From: Gemmataceae bacterium
GTDB taxonomy: Bacteria > Planctomycetota > Planctomycetia > Gemmatales > Gemmataceae
Direction of reading: 5' to 3'
DNA length: 64,000 nt
Assembly (NCBI GenBank): GCA_019694755.1
Contig: JAIBBI010000015.1
Location: forward strand, 1-64,000
The translations under genes and the position numbers were made by a program. Below, one piece after another: positions 5,001 to 19,951 of the stretch (positions within the stretch are counted from its first letter, which is position 1; each line of letters opens with the position of its first letter). A model generated the notes under the pieces. That model made no database searches. It saw nothing but the letters and a program-made list of their open reading frames with translations, and had not been told where the DNA came from.

Positions 5001-5038
5001 GAAAAAGGAACGCCCCGGGGAGATACGACCCCGGGGCG
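5001..5038 (-). terminator. intrinsic terminator of the structured RNA
   Basis: On the minus strand CGCCCCGGGG (5038-5029) pairs perfectly with CCCCGGGGCG (5020-5011) across an 8-nt loop and is followed at once by TTCCTTTTTC. This is a textbook rho-independent layout on the minus strand. The plus-strand side has no T-run, so direction is clear. Confidence 0.7.
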
Positions 5039-5216
5039 CTCGACAATTCGCGGCTGTGCCCGACGGCAGAGCCCGTCGGCGGCCGTTAGGCCAGCCGCAC
5101 CTGTTTACCAGGTCTACTCAAGGGGACCACCTCCTTTTCTACAAGGCCACGCCTCCCGGCCATCGAATCGACCGCCCGGAGACCTTTCGCCCGTCGCGTC
5201 ACGATCACGCGACCCG
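5001..5216 (-). ncRNA. predicted structured RNA with terminator and short ORF
   Basis: Inferred transcript on the minus strand between divergent genes. Reading 5' to 3' it holds a 7-bp hairpin (arms 5207-5213/5193-5199), a 15-nt extended Shine-Dalgarno AAAAGGAGGTGGTCC (5138-5124), an 11-codon ORF from TTG at 5121 to TAA at 5086, a small CCTG-GTAAA-CAGG hairpin (5112-5100), a three-way junction (outer 7-bp stem 5098-5092/5056-5050 enclosing GGCC-TAAC-GGCC and a perfect 7-bp hairpin at 5079-5060), then a 10-bp GC stem followed by TTCCTTTTTC. A promoter-like pair lies just upstream (5252-5224). It may be an independent small RNA or a leader/attenuator for the dioxygenase at 4915. I do not recognise the family. 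Confidence 0.5.
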
Positions 5217-5223
5217 TTGCCCA

Positions 5224-5252
5224 ATGGTAGGCATGAGCCGGGCAAAATGCAA
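5224..5252 (-). promoter_or_regulatory. promoter-like TTGCAT-17-TACCAT for the structured RNA
   Basis: On the minus strand TTGCAT (5252-5247) and TACCAT (5229-5224) are separated by 17 bases, a reasonable sigma-70 spacing. A start point about 7 bases downstream would place the 5' end near 5216, directly before the first RNA hairpin. Match to consensus is moderate, so this is a prediction only. Confidence 0.4.
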
Positions 5253-19858: not shown

Positions 19859-19932
19859 GGGGGCGTAGCTCAATTGGTTAGAGCACCGGCCTGTCACGCC
19901 GGAGGTTGCGGGTTCGAGCCCCGTCGCCCTCG
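19859..19932 (+). tRNA. tRNA-Asp (GTC)
   Basis: 74 bases fold as a full cloverleaf: acceptor GGGGGCG/CGCCCTC (one G-T pair), D arm GCTC-AATTGGTTA-GAGC, anticodon arm CCGGC-CTGTCAC-GCCGG with anticodon GTC, variable AGGTT, T arm GCGGG-TTCGAGC-CCCGT, and discriminator G as expected for tRNA-Asp. The 3' CCA is not encoded. It lies 61 bases after rpiB and ahead of a strong terminator. Confidence 0.97.
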
Positions 19933-19951
19933 CTAGTTTTCAAGCAGATTT

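Follow-up and report, generated by a model that had tools for sequence, protein, structure and literature searches.

Layout of an RNA gene on the minus strand

The window, a 64,000-nucleotide stretch of DNA from a Gemmataceae bacterium, contains an RNA gene of about 215 nt on its minus strand (5217-5001) with its own promoter and terminator. The gene downstream encodes an intradiol dioxygenase and the divergent gene an FHA-GAF-SpoIIE protein (both by Pfam). Read from 5252 to 5001, sequence and fold place promoter-like boxes, a 7-bp hairpin, a second stem, AAAAGGAGGTGGTCC, a TTG codon, an 11-codon ORF, hairpins at the stop codon and a terminator in that order.

5224..5252, minus strand: promoter, with -35 TTGCAT (5252-5247), a 17-nt spacer and -10 TACCAT (5229-5224); read from the sequence
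5193..5213, minus strand: 5' hairpin of 7 bp, GTCGCGT-GATCGTG-ACGCGAC, with loop motif NNNCGTG; sequence
5141..5192, minus strand: second 5' stem, GGGCGAAAGGTCTCC ... GGGAGGCGTGGCCTTGT; predicted fold
5124..5138, minus strand: extended Shine-Dalgarno element AAAAGGAGGTGGTCC, complement of the 16S rRNA 3' tail; from the genome's own 16S
5086..5121, minus strand: short ORF, TTG start, 11 codons, MSRPGKQVRLA*, stop codon TAA at 5088-5086; sequence
about 5113-5099, minus strand: CCTG/CAGG hairpin; sequence
5081..5092, minus strand: stop-codon hairpin GGCC-TAAC-GGCC, formed by the ORF end and a proximal arm; sequence
5050..5098, minus strand: competing outer stem, GCGGCTG (5098-5092) with CAGCCGC (5056-5050); minimum-energy fold
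5079-5073 with 5066-5060, minus strand: CCGACGG/CCGTCGG stem inside the outer stem; minimum-energy fold
5001..5041, minus strand: intrinsic terminator, a 13-pair stem (5041-5008) with an 8-nt loop and a U-rich tail; sequence

An earlier note on this DNA had named the promoter, the 7-bp hairpin, the CCTG/CAGG and GCGGCTG/CAGCCGC stems, the terminator and the 11-codon ORF, and all of these were read directly on the minus strand. It was silent on the 13-15 nt that are complementary to the 3' tail of 16S rRNA and on conservation of the ORF as a frame. Its three-way junction is possible through the alternative GGCC-TAAC-GGCC hairpin, but at minimum energy the strand folds into one long hairpin with interruptions. 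The promoter is weak compared with the consensus and absent from a consensus-scan listing; at the corresponding position of the alignment most close homologues carry a better one (TTGAC..TAGAAT). In homologues the second 5' stem takes the form of GCTAGAGCC paired with GGTCTAGC, as read informally off the alignment by eye. The core of the terminator is a perfect 10-bp stem, CGCCCCGGGG/CCCCGGGGCG (5038-5011), which extends to 13 bp when its flanks are counted and is followed by TTCCTTTTTC (5010-5001).

The minus strand had a folding energy of -123.6 kcal/mol, compared with -96.7 +/- 5.3 for shuffled sequences (z = -5.1, with none of 200 shuffles as low), and the plus strand was nearly equal in foldability (z = -4.7). 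Because both strands fold far below their shuffles, the case for the RNA rests on comparison across genomes, and the strand was chosen not by energy alone but by the conserved promoter, ribosome-binding site, ORF and U-tract.

Homologues, covariation and gene neighbourhood

By BLASTN the region occurs once in its own genome and was found in 17 of 59 relatives, with the parts in the same order and frequent compensatory changes in the alignment of all BLASTN homologues. One of the 18 places outside its own genome (L018) was discarded: the match is spurious, a chance one within another sequence. R1, a covariance model covering the 3' half, matched 74 of the 102 genomes searched in the order and 118 of the 249 in the class, nearly always in one copy, and a phylum-wide model built from Planctomycetota sequences only (R2) matched 147 of 344 phylum genomes with one copy each; these fractions are lower limits, stricter filters being used in searches over more than 40 genomes. 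R1 also matched loci in other classes of the phylum, and every hallmark was present in those sequences. When named genomes were scanned with a pattern, most of those matched were Planctomycetota, Tautonia sociabilis, Paludisphaera soli and many Phycisphaerales among them; the clostridial matches (L190, L219, L226) were ordinary genes with strong ribosome-binding sites and were rejected. Five public MAG records (L206, L224, L231, L251, L252) are labelled Kuenenia, Bacillota or Proteobacteria. The labels of L224 and L231 look wrong, since these correspond to Planctomycetota genomes (G138, G451).

Covariation was scored in A4, an alignment of 100 homologues fitted to the model's structure, so that its pair counts lean toward that structure: 93% of cells paired, compared with 67% after shuffling and 27-48% with slid partners, 25 of the 26 modelled pairs had double changes (562 double-change cells versus 135 in shuffles), and the covariation score was 0.58 versus 0.16 shuffled and at most 0.13 slid. 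Covariation in the outer-stem region lies in helices 1-3 of A4, and the terminator (helix 4) had 96% of its cells paired and double changes in 12 of 12 pairs. Because of the way A4 was fitted, the 5' hairpin, which lies outside R1 and R2, was tested on segments picked by loop motif and distance only. In most of 111 homologues it precedes the ribosome-binding site by 62-84 nt, and 70% of it paired versus 53% when shuffled, with 132 double-change cells against a shuffled mean of 58 and maximum of 75, counted over homologues that are phylogenetically non-independent. The covariance search and compensatory changes proposed as checks in the earlier note have therefore been obtained, with homologues throughout the phylum and stems that covary.

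Some families depart from the common layout. Isosphaeraceae-like homologues (L025, L101-L123) apparently have one more hairpin ahead of the 5' hairpin, with a loop of the ACACACG type. Pirellulales-like homologues (L133-L152) have a GATC-rich hairpin instead of the usual terminator, often containing GGATCACC, a look-alike of the 16S tail, and their U-tract is further on or absent.

A scan of the window with Rfam 15 gave no family over its gathering score except a tRNA, which agrees with the earlier statement that the RNA is not RNase P, tmRNA, SRP RNA or 6S RNA. That tRNA, a tRNA-Asp (GTC) at 19859-19933, is the window's sole known RNA gene. No family matched in a scan of 12 homologous loci, and a literature search found no report of such an RNA in Planctomycetota. 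The homologues bear out the first proposal, that the minus strand encodes an unrecognised, structured RNA carrying a short ORF and a terminator. This is a real RNA, new to Rfam, phylum-wide and stand-alone, and it is near certain from the sequence comparisons that its gene is conserved in single copy across Planctomycetota.

Neither neighbour in the window recurs in the neighbour clusters of homologues, and the nearest gene downstream in 115 homologues shares the strand of the RNA in 57 and opposes it in 58 (neighbour genes were called by tblastn and codon-position GC, because antisense ORFs in GC-rich DNA can hide genes such as that for DAHP synthase). Because neither the downstream gene nor its orientation is conserved, the RNA is not a leader of the dioxygenase gene, and of the two roles first suggested, small RNA or dioxygenase leader, only that of a stand-alone RNA gene was retained. 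The only recurrent downstream gene encodes DAHP synthase, the first enzyme of aromatic amino acid synthesis, which at 34 of the 115 loci follows the RNA on its own strand at a distance of 46-680 nt (L025, L099-L121 and others). A cis-acting attenuator leader of the gene downstream (that for DAHP synthase in one clade and that for the dioxygenase in the window) would fit this adjacency as well as the leader-like ORF, alternative hairpins and terminator. However, the 34 loci amount to one Isosphaeraceae-like family (f3) and six Gemmataceae, first downstream genes elsewhere are as often opposite, the terminator stem (5041-5008) shares no bases with the switching arms (5098-5050), and the peptides contain no runs of aromatic codons. 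Attenuation is thus strongly disfavoured, to the point of being highly improbable; a leader of either gene was rejected on synteny, and we read the adjacency of DAHP synthase as an inherited neighbourhood rather than cis-regulation. The RNA does resemble leader-peptide attenuators of the trp/his/erm type in having a short ORF and mutually exclusive hairpins, where the position of the ribosome would select the fold, but it differs in being stand-alone, with its terminator outside the putative switch and no conserved downstream gene.

The ribosome-binding element and the short ORF

Ahead of the ORF lies AAAGGAGGTGRTCC, complementary to the whole 3' tail of 16S rRNA, whose 3' end in this genome is TTGGATCACCTCCTTTCT (also given as GGTTGGATCACCTCCTTTCT). 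The computed duplex between the window element and the tail comprises 15-16 bp at -25.0 kcal/mol. Across 115 homologues the median was -24.2 kcal/mol, compared with -8.3 for 673 control ORFs, each of which was allowed its best start among many, and 0.15% of these control ORFs reached the family median. Within the window, the extended Shine-Dalgarno element was matched nowhere else at one mismatch or fewer. All conserved positions of the 13-mer fit pairing to the 16S tail, and its variation mostly keeps the pair, with A or G opposite U at one position and C or T opposite G at another. Judged by this complementarity, the most conserved stretch of the RNA is a ribosome-binding element and not a free seed.

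Such a duplex could also belong to an RNA that binds the 30S subunit in order to block or buffer the anti-Shine-Dalgarno tail, as a ribosome sponge, a dormancy factor or a checkpoint for the 16S 3' end, in which the ORF only recycles captured subunits. Complementarity to the whole tail accords with this, and the normally spaced start codon and short frame would permit release. It leaves the covarying 5' domain and the stop hairpin unexplained, however, and titrating ribosomes from a single-copy gene needs very high expression, so we consider this role quite unlikely.

All 115 homologues have an ATG, GTG or TTG start at a normal distance from the ribosome-binding site, and a stop codon, with an ORF length of 8-15 codons in 114 and 24 codons in the other. 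The first stop fell within the interval beside the GACGG landmark in 77 of 83 cases in the true frame, versus 19 and 8 of 83 in the other frames, and this excess indicates that changes in ORF length preserve the frame. The 99 distinct ORFs encode 92 distinct peptides. Changes between close ORFs were 8 synonymous versus 26 nonsynonymous, a synonymous share of 24% compared with 27% expected without selection, although the count is small (34 changes) and the codons are constrained also by RNA pairing. Since amino-acid change is near neutral and the frame is kept, what is conserved in this predicted ORF is the act and place of translation, not the peptide. The RNA is probably translated, and with regard to the dual-function small RNA class, conservation of the frame argues for translation.

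A micro-gene whose functional product is the peptide of 8-15 residues would account for the strong ribosome-binding site, the start and stop codons found in every homologue, and the recurrence of Cys/Ser early in the peptide and of basic residues ahead of its C-terminus. The diversity of the peptides and the near-neutral synonymous share argue against it, as does the constraint that RNA pairing puts on the C-terminal codons, and a role for the peptide itself is very unlikely.

Relation to CC2171 and a proposed fold switch

On layout and reciprocal model matches, the closest known RNA is Rfam RF01867, the CC2171 sRNA of Caulobacter and other Alphaproteobacteria. In the open-access literature we found, CC2171 appears only in lists, with no function attached. 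It has GAAAGGAGGTGATCC right before the start codon at the same spacing, that is, GAAAGGAGGUGAUCC followed at a fixed distance by a start codon and short ORF, and it is likewise stand-alone with an intrinsic terminator and no required neighbour. The alphaproteobacterial ORF differs in being longer (about 18-32 codons, beginning MSHCH- or MSSE-), and the sequence upstream of the ribosome-binding site looks unlike that of the Planctomycetota RNA. The ribosome-binding element and a short ORF recurred in the seven alphaproteobacterial pattern matches, of which three were RF01867 at E<=3e-6, one over the cut-off. R2 matched 17 of 96 alphaproteobacterial genomes, and 12 of the 12 best places were RF01867 at E<=3e-4, five over the cut-off. 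In the other direction, 98 Planctomycetota genomes were searched with RF01867 and 17 gave a match, which for at least 11 of them lay at the R2 locus; none of the 98 exceeded its curated cut-off (75 bits), and the window was unmatched at E<=10. The ribosome-binding site and terminator may carry much of the score in these cross-matches, so that common descent is no more than a possibility. The predicted architecture common to the Planctomycetota RNA and CC2171 is established.

Five Planctomycetota genomes (G393, G411, G376, G410 and G378) have sub-threshold RF01867 matches outside the set placed at the R2 locus; these may be second copies or chance. Of three Sphingomonas matches, L306 lacks the usual start spacing and was left out of the membership count. 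Sphingomonas sp. Root710 has a second CC2171-like RNA (L308), whose stop is in the loop of a hairpin, GCGCG-TCTAA-CGCGC, as seen also in Planctomycetota. In three Rhodobacteraceae-like loci (L241, 2023-3375; L179, 4127-5352; L228) a yhhQ-like transporter gene precedes the CC2171-like RNA, and in L241 and L179 an ArfB-like ribosome-rescue gene follows it, a suggestive link to translation termination.

The listing of CC2171 as an sRNA, the stand-alone gene with promoter and terminator, and the conserved loop motifs would suit a conventional base-pairing sRNA, in which the 5' hairpin loop or the CCGACGG hairpin binds target mRNAs and the ribosome-binding site and ORF serve only to protect or localise the RNA. 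Conservation is highest in the ribosome-binding element and not in a free seed, and the frame is kept exactly, which makes this alternative unlikely, if still worth weighing.

The last codons of the ORF can pair either with the arm just past the stop (GGCC-TAAC-GGCC, with the stop in the loop) or with the distal arm (GCGGCTG/CAGCCGC). In homologues the stop codon is inside or beside a hairpin. Among 78 non-redundant homologues, the stop hairpin reached p<0.05 against shuffles in 26%, compared with 1% for three displacements of the position; a further one, of +24, gave 24% and lands on the next hairpin of the RNA. Pairing of the ORF end with the distal arm reached p<0.05 in 53%, and both pairings reached p<0.1 individually in only 32%. 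A structured RNA with a short internal ORF and its stop codon in a hairpin is also the description of tmRNA. Here the RNA has its own ribosome-binding site and start codon, in contrast to tmRNA; no tRNA-like part was detected in it, and the tmRNA model (RF00023) was unmatched in the window. Identity with tmRNA was rejected, the tmRNA of this genome being a separate gene (G000:C15:12-400).

We tentatively favour, at slightly less than an even chance, a ribosome-operated fold switch that acts in trans, the switch itself being inferred from complementarity. A 30S subunit would be captured at near-maximal affinity, and the ribosome would translate the short frame and terminate on a hairpin. Its footprint at the stop codon would occupy the shared ORF-end strand and take it out of pairing, such that the RNA would hold one fold while ribosomes load and terminate and another fold otherwise. 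In this way the RNA could report, and perhaps buffer, free 30S or termination capacity. The proposal draws on the single copy and wide spread of the gene, the covariation, the lack of a conserved neighbour, the pairing to 16S rRNA, the kept frame with an unselected peptide, both ORF-end pairings exceeding their controls, and the layout shared with CC2171. Against the switch, it may be that so strong a ribosome-binding site does no more than protect the RNA. A wider and more doubtful proposal is that the Planctomycetota RNA and alphaproteobacterial CC2171 belong to one deeply conserved, ribosome-reading class, mini-mRNAs that would capture 30S subunits through a full complement of the 16S tail, be translated for the sake of translation, refold at termination and act as trans sensors of ribosome availability or termination.

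A single-copy, structured RNA that is found across a phylum with its own promoter and terminator likely does something general, and in this case its anatomy points to the ribosome itself. The uncharacterised Caulobacter CC2171 family is recast as a related, probably translated RNA, a link that makes function approachable in the tractable organisms Caulobacter, Planctopirus and Gemmata.
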